A stretch of 64,000 nucleotides of DNA from assembly GCF_030685535.1 (NCBI RefSeq), contig NZ_CP131601.1, forward strand, positions 1,860,001-1,924,000. Direction: 5' to 3'. The notes beneath the pieces were generated by a model. It was given only the letters and a program-made list of their open reading frames with translations. It did not search any database and was not told the DNA's origin. The stretch's first letter is position 1. Every line of letters starts with the position of its first letter. This DNA comes from Photobacterium leiognathi. Its GTDB lineage: Bacteria; Pseudomonadota; Gammaproteobacteria; Enterobacterales; Vibrionaceae. Below are positions 8,416 to 28,195 of the stretch, piece after piece. Made by a program: the position numbers and the translations under genes.

Positions 8416-10563
8416 ATGGATAAGAAAAAGCTCGCTTTACTCATCGTGATTGTCAGTCTAATTGCAAGCTGGATCCATTTCGATCTAGGGCAATACCTCA
8501 CGCTTGATTTTATCAAGCAAGAGCAATCAGCCCTGCAAGCGAAAATTCAAAGCCAACCGATCGTGGCTTATGTGTCGTACTTTGCGATTTATGTTCTTGC
8601 AACTGCCTTATCCTTACCGGGTGCTGCTATTTTAACCTTGCTTGCTGCTGCCATCTTTGGTTTCTGGCCGAGCCTGATCATTGTTTCGTTTGCCAGCACC
8701 ATTGGCGCAACATTGGCGTTTCTTTCAAGTCGATTTATTTTACGTGACTGGGTACAACAACGTTTTGGCTATCGCTTAAAAACTATTAATCAAGGTATCG
8801 AGCAAGAAGGCGAATTTTACTTGCTAACTTTACGCTTGATCCCTGTTTTCCCGTTTTTCCTGATCAACTTATTGATGGGCTTAACACCAATCAAAACACG
8901 TACCTTTTATCTGATCAGCCAATTGGGAATGCTGCCTGCCACAGCTATTTTCATTAATGCCGGAACCCAGCTCAGCAACATTGAATCACTGCGTGGGATT
9001 GTTTCTACGCCTGTATTACTATCGTTAGCTCTTCTGGGAACGTTCCCACTCATTGCCAAGTTCATCGTCAACGCGATAAAGCGACAAAAAGTTTACCAAG
9101 GCTTTCAGAAACCTCGTTCATTTGATCAAAACCTTGTCGTTATTGGTGCAGGTGCTGGCGGTTTGGTTAGTTCATATATTGCAGCCGCAGTAAAAGCCGA
9201 AGTGACCTTGATTGAACGTCATAAAATGGGTGGCGATTGCTTAAATACAGGCTGTGTTCCCTCTAAAGCTTTAATTCGTGCCGCCCACAGTTCACATGAA
9301 ATCCAGCAAGCAAAACAGTTAGGCATTAACGCCAACATTGAAGCTATCGATTTCAAAGCCGTCAGGCAACGAGTACATCAAGTTATCGCTGATATCGAAC
9401 CGCATGACTCTATTGAGCGATACACCAAGTTAGGCGTGAACTGTATTCAAGGTGATGCCACCATTGTTTCTCCTTGGCAAGTGAAAGTGAACGATAAGAT
9501 CATCACGACACGTAACATCATTATTGCCACAGGTGCTTCGCCGCTATTGCCAAACATTACAGGTTTAAAAGCAGTTAATCCGCTAACTTCCGATACCTTA
9601 TGGCAACTAGAACAACAGCCACAAAAACTGCTTATTCTGGGTGGTGGTCCTATCGGTTGCGAATTAGCACAAGCGTTCAATCGTTTAGGTACGTCTGTCA
9701 CCTTGGTTGAAATGGCTGAACAAGTGCTCAATCGTGAAGATAACGATGCTGCTAGCGTCATTCGAAACAAACTCACTGACGAAGGCGTAAACGTATTACT
9801 TCAGCACAAAGCCGTAAGCTTTAAAGCAACCAGCAATGGTTATCATCTCGTACAGTTGAATGATCTTGCTAATAACCAAACAGTTGAAGTGGAGTTTGAT
9901 CAGGTCATTGTCGCCCTTGGTCGTGTTGCCAATACCCAAGGTTTTGGTTTAGAGACTTTAAACATTGAAACCACCCCAAAAGGAACAATCAAAGTTAACG
10001 ACTATCTACAAACCCAATACCCAAATATTTATGCAGTCGGTGATGTAGCAGGTCCTTTCCAACTGACGCATGCTGCAGCACACCAAGCATGGTATGCCTC
10101 TGTTAACAGCTTATTTGGTGCGATTAAGAAATTTAAAACCGATTACTCTGTGTTGCCAGCTGTTACCTATACCTCTCCAGAGTTGGCTCGAGTGGGATTA
10201 AACGAGAAAGAGGCACAAGCCCAAGGTATCGAATACAAAATCTATACTTATGATATTGCGGATTTAGATCGTGCGATCACTGACAATACCAATGAAGGTT
10301 TCATCAAAGTGCTGACACCGCCTAATAGCGACAAAATTTTAGGTGTAACCATTGTTGGTCATCATGGTGGTGAACTATTGGCGGAATTTACGTTAGCCAT
10401 GCGTCACAAGTTGGGATTGAACAAAATTTTATCGACAATCCATCCCTACCCAACCATGAGTGAAGCCGCGAAATATACTGCTGGGGTGTGGAAGCAACAT
10501 AACGCCCCGCAAAAGCTTTTATCTTTAGTACAGCGTTACCACCAATGGATGCGTAAACAGTAA
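8416..10563 (+). CDS. DedA/TVP38-type membrane domain fused to FAD disulfide oxidoreductase
   Basis: Fusion protein of 715 residues. Residues about 5-235 are a membrane module of the TVP38/TMEM64 (SNARE-associated/DedA) type with stretches SLPGAAILTLLAAAIFGFWP and LRLIPVFPFFLINLLMG. Residues about 238-700 are a class I pyridine-nucleotide disulfide oxidoreductase, like mercuric reductase or lipoamide dehydrogenase: FAD site VIGAGAGGLVSS, redox-active CLNTGCVPSK (Cys275/Cys280), NAD(P) site ILGGGPIGCELA, second FAD site YAVGDVAG, and the C-terminal interface His in HPYPTMSEA. ATG 8416 with AAGGTGA upstream is the start; the frame extends upstream into ynjA but without conservation. It sits between ynjA and ynjB. 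Substrate unknown; membrane-tethered reductase for a thiol or AhpD-like partner is inferred. Confidence 0.88.
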   Translation: MDKKKLALLIVIVSLIASWIHFDLGQYLTLDFIKQEQSALQAKIQSQPIVAYVSYFAIYVLATALSLPGAAILTLLAAAIFGFWPSLIIVSFASTIGATLAFLSSRFILRDWVQQRFGYRLKTINQGIEQEGEFYLLTLRLIPVFPFFLINLLMGLTPIKTRTFYLISQLGMLPATAIFINAGTQLSNIESLRGIVSTPVLLSLALLGTFPLIAKFIVNAIKRQKVYQGFQKPRSFDQNLVVIGAGAGGLVSSYIAAAVKAEVTLIERHKMGGDCLNTGCVPSKALIRAAHSSHEIQQAKQLGINANIEAIDFKAVRQRVHQVIADIEPHDSIERYTKLGVNCIQGDATIVSPWQVKVNDKIITTRNIIIATGASPLLPNITGLKAVNPLTSDTLWQLEQQPQKLLILGGGPIGCELAQAFNRLGTSVTLVEMAEQVLNREDNDAASVIRNKLTDEGVNVLLQHKAVSFKATSNGYHLVQLNDLANNQTVEVEFDQVIVALGRVANTQGFGLETLNIETTPKGTIKVNDYLQTQYPNIYAVGDVAGPFQLTHAAAHQAWYASVNSLFGAIKKFKTDYSVLPAVTYTSPELARVGLNEKEAQAQGIEYKIYTYDIADLDRAITDNTNEGFIKVLTPPNSDKILGVTIVGHHGGELLAEFTLAMRHKLGLNKILSTIHPYPTMSEAAKYTAGVWKQHNAPQKLLSLVQRYHQWMRKQ

Positions 10564-21598: not shown

Positions 21599-21955
21599 AT
21601 GTCTTTTATCCTATCCATTAAACGGTTCTTGTTTGTAGTGTTACTCGCAACACCTCTTGTCGCTTTTGCCGATGAAATAACGCCGGAGCAACAGTTTGAA
21701 ATAGGTAAACAGAAGGCCCTTGTGTGTGTGACCTGCCACGGGGTTGACGGTATTTCGGCTACTGAGACTTACCCCAACCTGCAAGGTCAAAAGCAACAAT
21801 ACCTAATTGCAGCTCTTAAAGCATATAAACAAAACCAACGTATTGATGGGCTAGCAATATTAATGCAAGGCTATGCGAAACATTTAAGTGATCAAGATAT
21901 GAGGGATCTTGCGTATTACTTCAGCCATGTAAAAACAGAAAATCATGATCAATAA
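21599..21955 (+). CDS. Monoheme class I cytochrome c (c553-like)
   Basis: Secreted cytochrome of 118 residues. Signal peptide (SIKRFLFVVLLATPLVAFA) then a single heme site CVTCH and the distal Met in AILMQGYAKHLSDQDMRDLA. ATG 21599 follows AAGGGAGG; a GTG two codons upstream is also in frame. It sits 26 nt before ccoN and is probably the electron donor or an accessory cytochrome of the oxidase encoded next. Confidence 0.88.
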   Translation: MSFILSIKRFLFVVLLATPLVAFADEITPEQQFEIGKQKALVCVTCHGVDGISATETYPNLQGQKQQYLIAALKAYKQNQRIDGLAILMQGYAKHLSDQDMRDLAYYFSHVKTENHDQ

Positions 21956-21981: not shown

Positions 21982-23421
21982 ATGACGATGGATACTCGGT
22001 ACAACTATAAAATCGTTCAATACTTTATGGTTGCCAGTGTTATTTGGGCGCTAATTGGCATGTTAATCGGTGTGATTTTAGCAGCGCAACTTTACTGACC
22101 AGCCTTGAATTTAGATTCTGAGTATTTCCAGTTTGGTCGTCTTCGCCCTTTACATACTAACGGGGTGATTTTTGGCTTTGTGGTTAACCTCTTGATGGGG
22201 ACATCTTTCTATATAATTCAACGTACCTGTAAGCAGCGACTATATAATATGTCGATTGCTTGGTTGGTATTTTGGCTCTGGCAATTCATCTTAATTCTCG
22301 CAGTTATCACCTTACCAATGGGCTTTACCACCTCAAAAGAATATGCCGAACTTGAATGGCCTATCGACATTCTCATTGCCATCACTTGGGTGATGTATGC
22401 AATTGTTTTCTTTATGACAATAGCCAAGCGTTCGGTACATCATATCTTCGTTGCTAACTGGTTTTATGGTGCGTTTATTATTGTTATTGCGATGATATTT
22501 ATTGCTAACAATCTCGAATTACCTGTCACGATGTGGAAATCTTATTCCATTTATTCCGGCGCAGAAGATGCCATTGTGCAATGGTGGTGGGGTCATAACG
22601 CAGTAGGCTTTTTACTCACAGCAGGGATCATTGGGATGAATTACTACTTCATTCCGAAAGTTGCTGAACGCCCTATTTATTCTTACCGTTTATCTGTTAT
22701 TCATTTTTGGGGATTAGTCGGCTTTTATACTTGGGCGGGCACGCACCATTTAATCTATTCATCAGTACCTGATTGGCTGCAAAATCTCGGTATTGTGATG
22801 TCACTTATTCTATGGCTACCGTCTTGGGGTGGCGCATTTAATAGCATGATGACCTTGCTTAACAATAAGCAAAAGCTCAAACATGACTATATTATGTGGT
22901 TCTTCTTCTCTGCGATTGTGTATTACGCCCTTGCTACTTTTGAAGGCCCATTACTGGCAATTCGTTGGTTTAATATGATCGCCCATAATACTGATTGGGT
23001 AATTGGACATGTTCATTCTGGCGCATTGGGCTGGGTAGGTATGTCTGCCATTGCGACCTTCTATTACTTTATTCCTCGCCTGTATGGTCATGAACAATTG
23101 TGGTCTAACCGTTTAGTGAAATGGCATTTCTGGTTAGCCCATATTGGGATTGTGTTATATGCCGTTGCCCTATGGATTGCAGGTATTGGACAAGGCTACA
23201 TGTGGCTAAAAGAAGAGCCAAATGGCTCACTCAGTTATAGCTTTGTCGAAGCCATGAACTTTAGTGCCCCTTGGATGTTAGTTCGCTTTATTGGCGGTGC
23301 ACTGTTTGTGCTTGGCGTAGTATTGATGATTTATAACCTTTACCGCACGGTGAAACAGCCTAAACCCAAAAACAATAATAACGCTGACACCGTAACAGAA
23401 AAGGTAGATGCGCATGATTAA
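21982..23421 (+). pseudogene. ccoN: ccoN, cbb3 oxidase catalytic subunit, interrupted by in-frame TGA
   Basis: Heme-copper catalytic subunit of a cbb3-type cytochrome c oxidase. From ATG 21982 the frame is conserved (YNYKIVQYFMVASVIWALIG, first helix) but reaches TGA at 22096-22098 (codon 39) where the family has Trp (QLYWPALN expected, QLY-stop-PALN seen). The remaining 440 codons are intact, with all metal-ligand regions: RPLHTNGVIFGF, WWWGHNAVGF (CuB His and downstream Tyr), AGTHHLIYSSVP and VIGHVHSGALGW. TTG 22105 could restart translation but would lose helix 1. A TGG to TGA change explains the break; TGA followed by C is a leaky context. The 3' end overlaps ccoO. Confidence 0.87.
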
Positions 23422-24022
23422 TAAAGACTTTACTTCATCGGTGGTGATTTTAATTGCGTCAACAGCAATTGTTGCTGCTTTCTCTTTCCTTGTTTGGGTT
23501 CTACCTGCCTTCTTCTATCAAGACAAGCTGATTGCAGAATCGACAGCAAAACCGTTAACGGCGTTACAAGTAGCTGGACGTGATATTTACATCAGTGAAG
23601 GTTGCCATACTTGCCACTCAATGATGGTTCGTCCGCTTAATGCTGAGATAAAACGTTATGGCAGATACAACCGAGAGAGTGATGATATATACGAGCATCC
23701 AAATCTTTGGGGTTCAAAACGAACAGGGCCAGATTTAACCAATCTTGGGCGTAAATATTCAGATCAATGGCATATTATTCATCTGCGTAATCCTCGTGAT
23801 GTAGTACCAACATCGATCATGCCGTCTTATCCGTGGTTATTTGAGCAAGTATTAGATGGTGAAGACATTGAAGCTAAGCTCACAGCCCTACGCACTTTAG
23901 GTGTGCCCTATAGTGACAAAGAAATTCGCCAAGCGAGATTAGAGGTGAAAGGTAAAACCAAAGCACAAGCATTAATCGCCTACTTGCAAAGCTTGGGACA
24001 AGATCAAGGAGTACGACCATGA
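23414..24022 (+). CDS. ccoO: cbb3 oxidase monoheme subunit CcoO
   Basis: Membrane-anchored monoheme cytochrome c subunit. N-terminal anchor helix (about 8-30), heme motif in EGCHTCHSMMVRPLNAEI, and YGRYNRESDDIYEHPNLWGS, TGPDLTNLGRKYSDQWH, NPRDVVPTSIMPSYPWL, all CcoO signatures with the distal Met. Start taken at ATG 23414, which overlaps the ccoN stop; ATG 23408 is also possible. It overlaps ccoP by 4 nt, so there is no ccoQ between them. 202 residues. Confidence 0.93.
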   Translation: MINKDFTSSVVILIASTAIVAAFSFLVWVLPAFFYQDKLIAESTAKPLTALQVAGRDIYISEGCHTCHSMMVRPLNAEIKRYGRYNRESDDIYEHPNLWGSKRTGPDLTNLGRKYSDQWHIIHLRNPRDVVPTSIMPSYPWLFEQVLDGEDIEAKLTALRTLGVPYSDKEIRQARLEVKGKTKAQALIAYLQSLGQDQGVRP

Positions 24023-26218
24023 GTGCTTTTTGGAGTAGTTGGGTCATAATCTTAACGCTGATTTTTTTAGCGTTCATGACTGCAGTCGTTGTGGTGTATT
24101 GGAAAAAGAACCACTCAGCCAATGCAAACCGAACTGTTGAGAGCTTTGATGGGATAGATGAAAACGACGCGGCTGTACCCAGTCTGCTGCTTTTATCCTA
24201 TCTTGCTGCGTTCATTATTGCTGCGGTTTTCTTAGTGCTTTATCCCGGCATGGGAAATTGGCAAGGATTAATGAAATGGCAGTCTACCAGCGAAGCAGAA
24301 TCTACCGCTCCGACTTCACTGCAGGCACAAATCGCTCAACTGGGTGGAGATAACTTAAGTTATAAAGATTTGAGTAAATCCCCTGAAATCGTCAATGCTG
24401 GCCTCGCTTTATTTCAAACCCATTGCGCCGCCTGTCATTTAAATCAAGCCCAAGGACAACTACATTTTCCCAATTTAAGCGATACAGTTTGGCTATATGG
24501 CGGCAGTGACGAAGCGATCCATCATTCCATTGTTCACGGCCGTAATGGTGTCATGGCTAGGTTGGAAAGATATTCTAACCGAAGAAGAAATTGAGCATGT
24601 TTCCTCTTATGTCGCTTCACTTGAAAAAAATCGCATTATTGCTGAGCCTACTATTAACCTTGAACTCGGTAAAACCGTATTTGATGCAAACTGTACCGCT
24701 TGTCATGGCAGTGATGCAAAAGGTAATCAAGCTTTAGGTGCGCCGAATCTCACCGATAATATTTGGCTTCATGACGGCAGTATTGAAGGCATTAATGCCA
24801 CCGTCACATATGGCTTAAATAACGTTATGCCCGCTTTTGAAAACCAACTCACTGATGATGAAATTCAAGCTCTAGGGGCTTATATACGTCATCAAGGTAA
24901 TGAGCAACAAAACAAACTTGCAGAGCTCGATCAAGATATGGTCAGTAAAGGACAGTATCTAGCCTACGCAGGTGACTGTATTGCTTGCCATACAGGTGAA
25001 GGTGGTGAACCTTTTGGTGGTGGTTTAGGTTTCTTAACTCCGTTTGGTACGCTTTATTCAACCAATATTTCAGCTCACCCTACCTATGGTATTGGTGATT
25101 ACACCTATGAGGAGTTTTACGACGCACTACACAAAGGAAAAGGGAAACACGGTTATTTATACCCTGCAATGCCTTACTCGTCTTATCAATATGTCACCGA
25201 TGAAGATACTCAAGCGTTATGGGCGTATATGCAATCGCTTAACTTTGTAAACACCCGTAATCAAGAGAATAAGATGATGTTTCCAAGTAACATTCGTTTG
25301 GGGCTATTAGGCTGGAATATTGCTTTCTTAAACACTGCACCACTGGAATACCCCGATGATATGACCGAGCAATGGAAGCGTGGTAAATACCTCACCATGG
25401 GATTAGGTCACTGTTCGGAATGTCATACACCACGTAACGTAGCGCAAGCCTTGATCGAAAAAGAGCTATTCCAAGGTAATTTAATTGATGGTTGGAAAGC
25501 TCCTGATATTACTGCAACAGAGCTTTATCAAGACCGTTGGGATGTGAAAACTTTAACGGATTTTTTAAAAACGGGTCATTCCGATAAAGGAACCGCATTT
25601 GGTGGTATGGCGGAAGTGGTACAAAACAGTACTCGCTTCTTAACAGAGAAAGACGTCGCAGCCATTGCGGAATACTTGATCACTGGTGATAAATATAACG
25701 AGTTAGATAGCTCGGTTCCTCAGCTTAACCCTCCAGGGTTTGGTGATTTAGTGCCAGCCGATGTTGATATTCAAACCGTTGAGCTAAAACCGTTAAGTAG
25801 CGACGATCCTGAAAACGAAGCCAAACTCTATGGTTTGTATGTTCAAACCTGTGGTGCATGTCATGGTAAAGACGGGAAAGGCCGAAAAGGTATCGCCCCT
25901 ACACTGCTTAATAACGGGATAATTATGCACAGTGATCCTTACGATACTATTGCCGTTACTATTCGTGGTTTATCGCCAAACTTTATGGAGCAAGACACCA
26001 ATTTCATGCCAATGAGTAGCTTTAACTCAGTGATCAGTGACGCTAACTTGGCAAAACTGATCAGCTTTGTTCGTGCGAAATTAGGTGATCGTACAGTGCC
26101 AGTTACCCCGCAAGAAGTTTCTGATGTGCGTAAGGCATTAGTTGAAGGTGGTTACGCTGGAAATATTCACAGCATGACACTACCAGAAGCTAATGAGCCA
26201 AATAGTTTTACGGAATAA
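24019..26218 (+). pseudogene. ccoP: ccoP fused to triheme AdhB-type cytochrome (five hemes), +1 frameshift
   Basis: CcoP-type subunit enlarged by fusion. The first part is classic CcoP: two N-terminal helices (about 5-27 and 54-77), ESFDGIDENDA, VLYPGMGNWQG, heme 1 CAACH (Cys136) and heme 2 CTACH (about 225). The chain continues without a break into an alcohol/gluconate-dehydrogenase cytochrome-subunit module with hemes CIACH (about 320), CSECH (about 465) and CGACH (about 611), including DCIACHTGEGGEPFGGG and LGHCSECHTPRN. Corrected length is 732 residues, about twice a normal CcoP. One extra base near 24559 shifts the frame; removing it gives NGVMAGWKDILTEEEIEHV across the junction. Decay or sequence error cannot be separated here. 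Confidence 0.85.
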
Positions 26219-26352: not shown

Positions 26353-26532
26353 ATCCTTTGAGTAGAGGCGCGCTGCCTATTAGTATCCAGATGGAGGGTG
26401 ACACCTAAGAAGTCTGGGGAAAGGAGTCGGCGCCGAAGTCATTGTTGTGTCATCAACAGTGGCTGGGTCTGCATTAAATAAGTGCAGAACTGCCATAGTT
26501 TACGTAGTCTATGGAGCGCTACCCTAAGGGAT
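26353..26532 (+). promoter_or_regulatory. Lysine riboswitch (L-box)
   Basis: Conserved L-box blocks appear in order: AGAGGCGCG, GGAGGGTGACACC, CTGGGGAAAGGAG, CGCCGAAG, a P4-type stem TCTGCATT/AGTGCAGA and TATGGAGCGCTACCC. P1 is formed by ATCCTTTGAGTAG (26353-26365) with CTACCCTAAGGGAT (to 26532). Downstream are a T6 run after a short stem (26531-26549), a CTATC/GGTAG hairpin and a CACCTA/TAGGTG hairpin just before the ribosome-binding site. It controls the lysine transporter that follows, presumably turning it off when lysine is plentiful. Confidence 0.95.
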
Positions 26533-26614
26533 ACGACGAAGTATTTTTTCTACAGAAATCTGTTTCTCTATCCTTTCGGTAGATCTCCACCTAATATAGG
26601 TGTTTAAGAGATCC

Positions 26615-28195
26615 ATGAATCTAGTTCAATATTCTGACTCCCTTTTATCAGTCGTTCCGGCATTACTTGCTGTTATTTTAGCTATCGCCACTCGTCGCGT
26701 ATTGCTATCACTTGGTCTTGGCATTGTTGCTGGCGCAATCCTTCTTAATGATTACAACCCTTTAGCTGCGCTAAAATACATTGTTCATCAAGTCGTTGGT
26801 CTTATTTGGTCTGACGGTGCGGTAAATAGTGGCAACGTGAATATGATCATCTTCATGTTGTTACTAGGCGGTTTGATCAGCCTAATGACAGCAACAGGTG
26901 CAACCCGTGCATTTGCTGAATGGGGTTACCGCCGTTGTAAAGATCGCCGCAGTGCAAACATGCTAACAAGCCTAATGGTTTTTGCTTTCTTTATTGATGA
27001 CTTCTTCCACAGCTTGTCTGTAGGTCCTATTTGTCGTCCTGTGACTGACCGTTTCAACATTTCACGTGCGAAACTGGCATACCTACTGGACTCAACTGCA
27101 GCGCCTGTTTGTGTCATTACACCTATTTCATCTTGGGGCGCATACATTATTGCAATCCTTGGCGGTATCCTAGCAACGAACCATATTACTGATATCAGCG
27201 CGATTTCATTATTCGTTCAAATGATCCCAATGAACCTATACGCGGTGTTCACACTGCTTATGGTTATCGTGGTTATCTTCTTCCAACTAAACATTGGTCC
27301 AATGCGTCAACACGAAGCATGGGCAGAAGAAGGTAAACTATGGGACGAATCAAAAGGTCACCCTAAAGGTCTAGAGATCACAACAGAATCTTCAGGCAAA
27401 GGCACGATGATCGACATGGTACTGCCGATCCTAACGTTAACAGTATCAAGTGTTATCTTTATGGTGATCAGCGGTGCAGACGTTCTAGCCTCTCGCGGTG
27501 AAGCATTTAGCCTAATTAAATCACTTGAACACACTGATTTAGGTTCATCACTGGTCAACGCCTCACTATGTAGCCTTGCTGTTTCAATGGTATTAGCACT
27601 TCGCTTAAAGCTATCACTAAAAACATGGCTAACAGCAGCACCACAAGGTATTCAAGCAATGATGCCTGCGATCGTTATCCTAATGTTCGCATGGACTATC
27701 GGTACTGTAGTAAGTGACATGAAAACTGGTCTGTACCTAGCTTCATTAACGAAAGGTGGCTTCCCTACTGAACTACTACCTGCATTAGTATTCGTTCTAT
27801 CTTGCGCAATGTCTTTCGCGACAGGTACAAGCTGGGGTACGTTCGGTATCATGTTGCCACTAGCGGGTGATATGGCGGTAGCAAGTGATGCTCACCTACT
27901 AATGCCTATGCTTTCTGCGGTACTTGCTGGCTCTGTATTTGGCGACCACAGCTCACCAATTTCAAGCACAAGTATTCTGTCGGCAACTGGTGCTGGTAGC
28001 CACCACATGGATCACGTGATGACTCAGCTTCCTTACGCTGTAACAGTGGCATTCGGTGCATTATTAGGTTACTTAACCATGGGTATTATGTCGTCAACTA
28101 TCGCTGGTATCGGCGTAAGTGCACTATGGTTCCTAGCATGTTGTACTATCCACCTTCGTCGTCACAGAAAATACCAACAAGCGGTAACAGCATAA
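26615..28195 (+). CDS. lysW: NhaC-family lysine transporter LysW
   Basis: Multi-helix inner-membrane transporter of the NhaC Na+/H+ antiporter superfamily, 526 residues. Members next to L-box riboswitches form the LysW lysine transporter group, so lysine uptake is inferred from the riboswitch, not from the fold alone. Typical stretches: FIDDFFHSLSVGPICRPVTD, STAAPVCVITPISSWGAY, FATGTSWGTFGIMLPLAG and GDHSSPISSTSILSATGA. Start ATG 26615 has AAGAG 5 nt upstream; a GTG at 26600 is in frame but lies in the leader hairpin. Confidence 0.88.
   Translation: MNLVQYSDSLLSVVPALLAVILAIATRRVLLSLGLGIVAGAILLNDYNPLAALKYIVHQVVGLIWSDGAVNSGNVNMIIFMLLLGGLISLMTATGATRAFAEWGYRRCKDRRSANMLTSLMVFAFFIDDFFHSLSVGPICRPVTDRFNISRAKLAYLLDSTAAPVCVITPISSWGAYIIAILGGILATNHITDISAISLFVQMIPMNLYAVFTLLMVIVVIFFQLNIGPMRQHEAWAEEGKLWDESKGHPKGLEITTESSGKGTMIDMVLPILTLTVSSVIFMVISGADVLASRGEAFSLIKSLEHTDLGSSLVNASLCSLAVSMVLALRLKLSLKTWLTAAPQGIQAMMPAIVILMFAWTIGTVVSDMKTGLYLASLTKGGFPTELLPALVFVLSCAMSFATGTSWGTFGIMLPLAGDMAVASDAHLLMPMLSAVLAGSVFGDHSSPISSTSILSATGAGSHHMDHVMTQLPYAVTVAFGALLGYLTMGIMSSTIAGIGVSALWFLACCTIHLRRHRKYQQAVTA

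Follow-up and report, generated by a model that had tools for sequence, protein, structure and literature searches.

A cbb3 oxidase subunit CcoP fused to a triheme dehydrogenase-type cytochrome: a conserved pentaheme variant with a broken copy in Photobacterium leiognathi

The window analysed here, the whole stretch of 64,000 nucleotides of the Photobacterium leiognathi contig NZ_CP131601.1 (positions 1,860,001 to 1,924,000), holds a cbb3 oxidase operon in which the diheme subunit CcoP seems to be prolonged by three further c-type hemes. This locus raises two questions: does a five-heme CcoP exist as a single protein and, if so, from where would its additional hemes receive electrons? Regarding the first question, the pentaheme CcoP fusion is a real, widespread and conserved variant of the cbb3 oxidase, of which the window holds a broken copy.

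The operon spans 21.6-26.2 kb of the window on the plus strand, with the gene order monoheme cytochrome-ccoN-ccoO-ccoP5. Its first gene (21599..21955) encodes a monoheme c-type cytochrome with a CXXCH motif and a Cytochrom_C match (PF00034), as had been claimed in an initial sequence-only reading of this DNA. The following gene, ccoN, starts as a short N-terminal fragment (21982..22098) closed by an in-frame TGA at codon 39, which corresponds to position 39 of a relative's protein, and goes on as a frame of 438 aa (22105..23421) scoring over the TIGR00780 cut-off; one TGA is found within the PF00115 match. The monoheme subunit II is encoded by ccoO, an open frame of 204 aa (23408..24022) which overlaps ccoP with no ccoQ between them. 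The lack of ccoQ, also correctly anticipated, extends to the whole genome, in which PF05545 (FixQ) had no match, the control matches being in Caulobacter only. CcoP is hence co-encoded with ccoN and ccoO, but the operon departs from the canonical ccoNOQP arrangement by its missing ccoQ.

The fused gene itself is found in two frames. Frame 1 (24019..24594, 191 aa) covers the FixP_N membrane segment together with heme 1 (CXXCH at 24424) and departs from the conserved reading near 24560, in the interval separating hemes 1 and 2; frame 2 (24497..26218, 573 aa) carries hemes 2-5 (CXXCH at 24692, 24977, 25412 and 25850) and corresponds to the conserved reading from about 24560 onwards. The fused triheme module, of the Mo-dehydrogenase/FDH/ADH-subunit type, covers 24917..26137 with approximate ends, as located by positions 302-705 of the profile A1 (see below) against 7w2j_C, 8hdd_B and 8gy2_B and by the fold of the Photobacterium lucens protein. 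The CcoP start and the five CXXCH motifs read at 24019-26218 are thus present, the last three spaced as in triheme subunits of dehydrogenases, but the chain is not continuous and does not run straight into the second module as first described; the length of about 732 residues is exactly that of P. lucens, whose protein is intact, and no frame of 732 aa occurs in the window. Moreover, in referring to a corrected protein, the earlier description left unmentioned that ccoN, too, is interrupted by an in-frame TGA. Because the gene is split, its separate pieces reach TIGR00782 scores of 90.9 and 128.7, under the cut-off of 179.95. As sequenced, the gene of this genome cannot make the five-heme chain that had been described.

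Around the operon, a scan for promoters and terminators returned counts no higher than in shuffled sequences, and an upstream FNR-like box showed no clear enrichment (5 of 68 loci vs 3.2 percent in shuffles, chance about 0.07). A lysine riboswitch (RF00168, 129.7 bits) is located at 26355-26529 on the plus strand, before a transporter-like ORF of 531 aa (26600-28195).

The existence of the fusion is established by its relatives. The survey of Photobacterium genomes that had been proposed as a check was run with the second frame as query: 22 of 52 genomes carry the fusion, own genome counted, and the other 21 have it as a continuous frame of 722-755 aa. The 19 Photobacterium proteins that we inspected are 715-734 aa long with exactly five CXXCH motifs each, and the alignment of these intact sequences (A1) was used as query for a search of the family. 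There, 80 of 247 genomes matched, four of them through a separate triheme cytochrome only; among the 76 carriers, 74 have one continuous five-heme frame (704-755 aa) and two, the own genome and G201, a broken or partial one. Searches of the order, class and phylum were performed at a strict threshold (E 1e-130), at which divergent fusions may have been missed, and returned respectively 13 matches in 295 genomes, including three genomes from two other families, the own genome only (1 of 369), and 5 of 398, all from the same family. Among the best 80 of 104 relatives, the named carriers belong to Photobacterium, Aliivibrio, Vibrio, Shewanella and Psychromonas, together with one gammaproteobacterial MAG, the nearest being P. 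lucens with 95 percent identity in the second frame. In 71 loci (70 related ones and the window), the monoheme cytochrome was found 69 times, ccoN 68, ccoO 70 and ccoP5 71 times, while outside these four genes no neighbour family occurs in more than 27 of the 71; of the 70 related loci, 67 encode all five hemes in a single frame, far above chance. A CcoP match of canonical length is absent in 12 of the 22 Photobacterium carriers; eleven of these thus show an intact pentaheme CcoP and no other. A Photobacterium angustum genome, for example, has the gene intact but neither a canonical CcoP match nor one to MoCoBD_2.

If the fusion is genuine, how should the breaks in the window be understood? 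That two separate genes have been merged by an assembly error or a frameshift has a negligible probability. The split of the window's own ccoP could be read in this way, but it falls between hemes 1 and 2, within CcoP proper and not at the junction, and the 74 other family genomes with one frame already refute such a reading. Indeed, relatives do not encode two genes with a stop between heme 2 and heme 3, an arrangement that had been considered at the outset, but one continuous gene, and their intact copies rule out that the join is an assembly artefact. Regarding the interruptions of ccoN and ccoP, the operon has either been recently inactivated or suffers from assembly errors. A test of 189 orthologues of a relative in 400 kb of the own genome found 7 broken, vs 2 of 190 in the reverse test, a scatter that may be residual error; a looser first test had given 17 of 210 vs 14 of 211. 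The pieces of the window still show a dN/dS of 0.04 vs P. lucens, which fits sequencing or assembly errors in an operon intact in the living strain and implies that any loss is very recent. Against such errors, 182 of the 189 orthologues are intact and ccoN and ccoP, two of the seven broken ones, lie in one four-gene operon, as random error would presumably seldom produce. We consider the chances of the error reading to be slightly short of even. The five further broken orthologues (contig C3, within 1700001-2100000) include relatives of two proteins, one of 842 aa bearing a Tat-like signal and the other of 688 aa. As the two other COX1-family subunits of the own genome are CtaD-like and CyoB-like, no other cbb3 subunit I was found in it.

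A programmed frameshift was also considered and rejected: the ccoP5 genes of Vibrio variabilis and of two Vibrio maritimus drafts are split near the window's break, but by a different change, and these near-coincident splits are treated here as coincidence or error. In these three loci (L113, L114 and L115), the split is located around 10340-10550, a few codons from the break of the window, L113 having an earlier one as well; ccoN is also split or truncated, and further genes look split.

The two parts of the intact protein are clearly delimited. Residues 1-291 are CcoP and residues about 302-705 a triheme cytochrome of the fructose/alcohol/aldehyde-dehydrogenase type, as obtained from both profile and fold matches, which bears out the initial assignment of a CcoP joined to a triheme cytochrome of the AdhB/gluconate-dehydrogenase class with five hemes in all. 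Since CcoP matches stop at residue 290-293 and triheme matches start at 300-304, the linker amounts to about ten residues. On the CcoP side, both intact relatives tested exceed the TIGR00782 cut-off, and intact relatives contain the PF14715 membrane part and CXXCH motifs at positions 136 and 225 with their Met ligands. On the triheme side, three CXXCH motifs with Met ligands and the corresponding fold are present. Across the 19 rows of A1, a conserved Met follows each of the five motifs, M179, M384, M530 and M665 being invariant and M270 nearly so. The Met of the YPAMPY motif of the fusion falls opposite residue 109 in the alignment with the glucose dehydrogenase chain, whose heme ligands are given as Met109, Met263 and Met386 in an excerpt of PMC5979317. 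The module matches the PQQ-alcohol-dehydrogenase profile more weakly than fructose dehydrogenase. Its sequence match to the FDH, GDH and ADH chains (478-486 residues) ends at about residue 426-440, leaving their C-terminal stretch without a counterpart, the fold alignments reaching slightly further into these chains (444-464). The P. lucens structure model lacks hemes and reaches intermediate confidence (pLDDT 70.4, pTM 0.66); a first model, built from 19 near sequences, was discarded (pLDDT 48.5).

The triheme part is under strong purifying selection, with a dN/dS of 0.038-0.065 in eight pairs, four of which compare species without a match to MoCoBD_2, a domain of Mo-dehydrogenases. In these four pairs, the triheme part (0.038-0.055) is even more constrained than the CcoP part (0.067-0.081).

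From which lineage was this module recruited? Trees were built with 61 rows, i.e., 24 fusions, which are part of those available, together with cytochromes encoded beside Mo-dehydrogenases, GMC dehydrogenases and aa3/ba3 oxidases and tetraheme forms; L113, L186 and L190 (split or partial) and L130 were omitted, and the set includes no PQQ-ADH-linked sequence. The fusions form one clade (100/100), which joins (100/98) ten cytochromes from Mo-dehydrogenase operons of Photobacterium and Psychromonas and one unlabelled row. When seven long or doubtful rows are removed, the join with the remaining eight persists (100/99). One clade uniting the fusions with five GMC-linked cytochromes was rejected (p-AU 0.0001), this hypothesis having been set after the first tree. 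Among the relatives included in these trees, the fused module, judged by its sequence, is thus nearest to the triheme subunits of periplasmic Mo-dehydrogenases, with which it shares about 37-40 percent identity. The designation as alcohol-dehydrogenase type (AdhB) hence holds for the class of the module but not for its nearest kin. In all nine Photobacterium regions examined for a separate triheme cytochrome, the sequence shows together with it an XdhC-like gene, a 2Fe-2S-like subunit and a large subunit that starts with a twin-arginine-like signal, and in the Photobacterium profundum operon Pfam confirms the MoCoBD_1/2, Fer2 and XdhC domains.

This ancestry brings back the initial proposal that the arm docks a periplasmic dehydrogenase and passes its electrons directly to the oxidase. 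Its kinship with the cytochromes of Tat-signal Mo-dehydrogenases speaks for it in both the full and the pruned trees, as do the Mo-dehydrogenase operons adjoining the fused operon in P. profundum and Psychromonas marina, on different sides, and the occurrence of the sister Mo-dehydrogenase in 10 of 76 carriers vs 6 of 171 other genomes, a moderate enrichment (Fisher p 0.009, uncorrected for kinship) that assumes that both 247-genome searches drew the same genomes. Yet 66 of the 76 family carriers have no match to this enzyme at E 1e-100, and MoCoBD_2 finds no match in 12 of 52 Photobacterium genomes, all of which are carriers (12 of 22), the own genome and 11 others. Gluconate_2-dh3, the small subunit of GMC dehydrogenases, was found in none of the 52 genomes, and PQQ-ADH matches exceeded the family cut-off in none, weak ones being present in all 52 with the seven best in non-carriers. 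Moreover, the fused operon itself contains no catalytic dehydrogenase subunits, adjacency is limited to 2 of 70 related loci, where the Mo-dehydrogenase forms an operon of its own, and the Mo-dehydrogenases seen retain their own triheme cytochrome. In the own genome, where MoCoBD_2, Gluconate_2-dh3 and PQQ-ADH families were searched, no cognate enzyme was found and the proposal is unsupported, its support elsewhere being weak; overall, we regard dehydrogenase docking as possible but unlikely. The arm apparently does not need the sister dehydrogenase. Since purifying selection persists in species without a MoCoBD_2 match, it would rather be kept for another role or for an unrecognised donor.

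Alternatively, the arm might oxidise ubiquinol, making a quinol-oxidising cbb3 oxidase that bypasses bc1, the reverse of what dehydrogenase cytochrome subunits do with quinone. The related cytochrome subunits of acetic acid bacteria react with ubiquinone, in line with this idea. It is nevertheless very improbable: the C-terminal stretch of FDH, GDH and ADH has no counterpart in the sequence match of the fusion, although fold alignments extend a short way into it. The title of one fold match names a C-terminal hydrophobic part of FDH, and the membrane anchor of the fusion is located at its far N-terminal end.

We favour, with moderate confidence, a cbb3 oxidase with a covalent triheme arm on the periplasmic C-terminus of CcoP, derived from the lineage of Mo-dehydrogenase cytochromes and most likely serving as a fixed electron-entry wire. 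Electrons would enter at the C-terminal, distal heme 5, or at the arm in general, and would travel through hemes 4 and 3, then through both hemes of CcoP and that of CcoO, to the b/b3-CuB site of CcoN, the second CcoP heme acting as outside acceptor for the arm. CcoP is attached on the heme-1 side of the triheme module, and this polarity fits a wire leading into the oxidase. Where a cognate dehydrogenase is missing, the likely donor would be the conserved soluble monoheme cytochrome of the operon, the obvious candidate, while in the minority of carriers with a Mo-dehydrogenase this enzyme may dock directly on the arm. What counts against the wire is the descent of its module from a dehydrogenase-cytochrome lineage, and both the enrichment and the adjacency in 2 of 70 loci favour the dehydrogenase instead.

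Similar modules are encountered beside other oxidases. AdhB-like modules occur with coxB-ctaD (aa3), in ba3-type operons and, for the tetraheme form, beside COX2 in 8 of 9 tetraheme loci. We examined a sample of 15 plasmid records, hand-chosen from the best 25 of 136, of which 12 are annotated at the match: five are oxidase operons, one of them having a GMC gene about 3 kb away, five are GMC dehydrogenases and two Mo-dehydrogenases; among the three unannotated ones, one is a fusion itself. This small, hand-chosen sample points to the module class as a possible entry arm of oxidases rather than as a mark of alcohol dehydrogenases. On two rhizobial plasmids, L218 (3249-8311) and L219 (3158-8342), the operon of a ba3-type oxidase also encodes an AdhB-like triheme cytochrome and has two more genes for c-type cytochromes. 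Eight genomes of the same class (loci L179, L183, L184, L185, L187, L188, L191 and L192) encode tetraheme cytochromes with an AdhB-like N-terminal part beside COX2. More tentatively, and with rather less than even confidence, we propose that dehydrogenase-type triheme cytochromes are a portable entry arm recruited repeatedly by heme-copper oxidases, beside aa3/ba3 enzymes and fused to cbb3 in marine Vibrionaceae, Shewanella and Psychromonas, in which case the pentaheme cbb3 oxidases would be a distinct class with an entry site independent of the ancestral dehydrogenase.

Among the matches listed in the open-licence literature, none describes a pentaheme CcoP; the matching passages that pair "ccop" with "pentaheme" or "pentahaem" concern the nitrite reductase NrfA instead. 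The P. profundum cbb3 oxidase PBPRA1834, which may be either the fused or the canonical form, has been reported to be up-regulated at high pressure (PMC3669370). Since 12 of the 22 Photobacterium carriers, 11 of which have the gene intact, show no CcoP other than the pentaheme one, cbb3 respiration in these genomes would depend on an uncharacterised protein with five hemes. The fusion would also illustrate the capture of another enzyme's cytochrome as a way for an oxidase to acquire a new site of electron entry.

Compared with known systems, the fusion adds some 440 residues and three hemes to CcoP/FixP, the diheme subunit III of cbb3 oxidases (TIGR00782; 3mk7, 8smr, 8snh), and is encoded without ccoQ. 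With respect to the triheme subunits of fructose, alcohol, aldehyde and glucose dehydrogenases (7w2j, 8gy2, 8gy3, 8hdd), its module is internal, has no signal peptide of its own, is not accompanied by dehydrogenase subunits and lacks a sequence counterpart to their C-terminal stretch. The triheme cytochrome of the periplasmic (Tat) Mo-dehydrogenase of Photobacterium and Psychromonas, its nearest relative in the trees at the identity given above, is in contrast encoded separately, its gene being preceded by those of the Mo and 2Fe-2S subunits and adjoined by an XdhC-like one. The AdhB-like tri- and tetraheme cytochromes of aa3/ba3 operons represent the same module class by a heme-copper oxidase, but they are unfused, belong to other oxidase families and sit on separate tree branches. 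Finally, the fusion is a natural counterpart to engineered CcoP-cytochrome fusions: in the c1-CcoP-cy construct of Rhodobacter capsulatus, as presented in an excerpt of PMC7876108 (6xkx), the cytochrome cy domain placed at the CcoP C-terminus gave a functional complex, the added domain of this man-made protein being monoheme and borne on a 69-residue linker, whereas that of the natural fusion is triheme and follows a linker of about ten residues.
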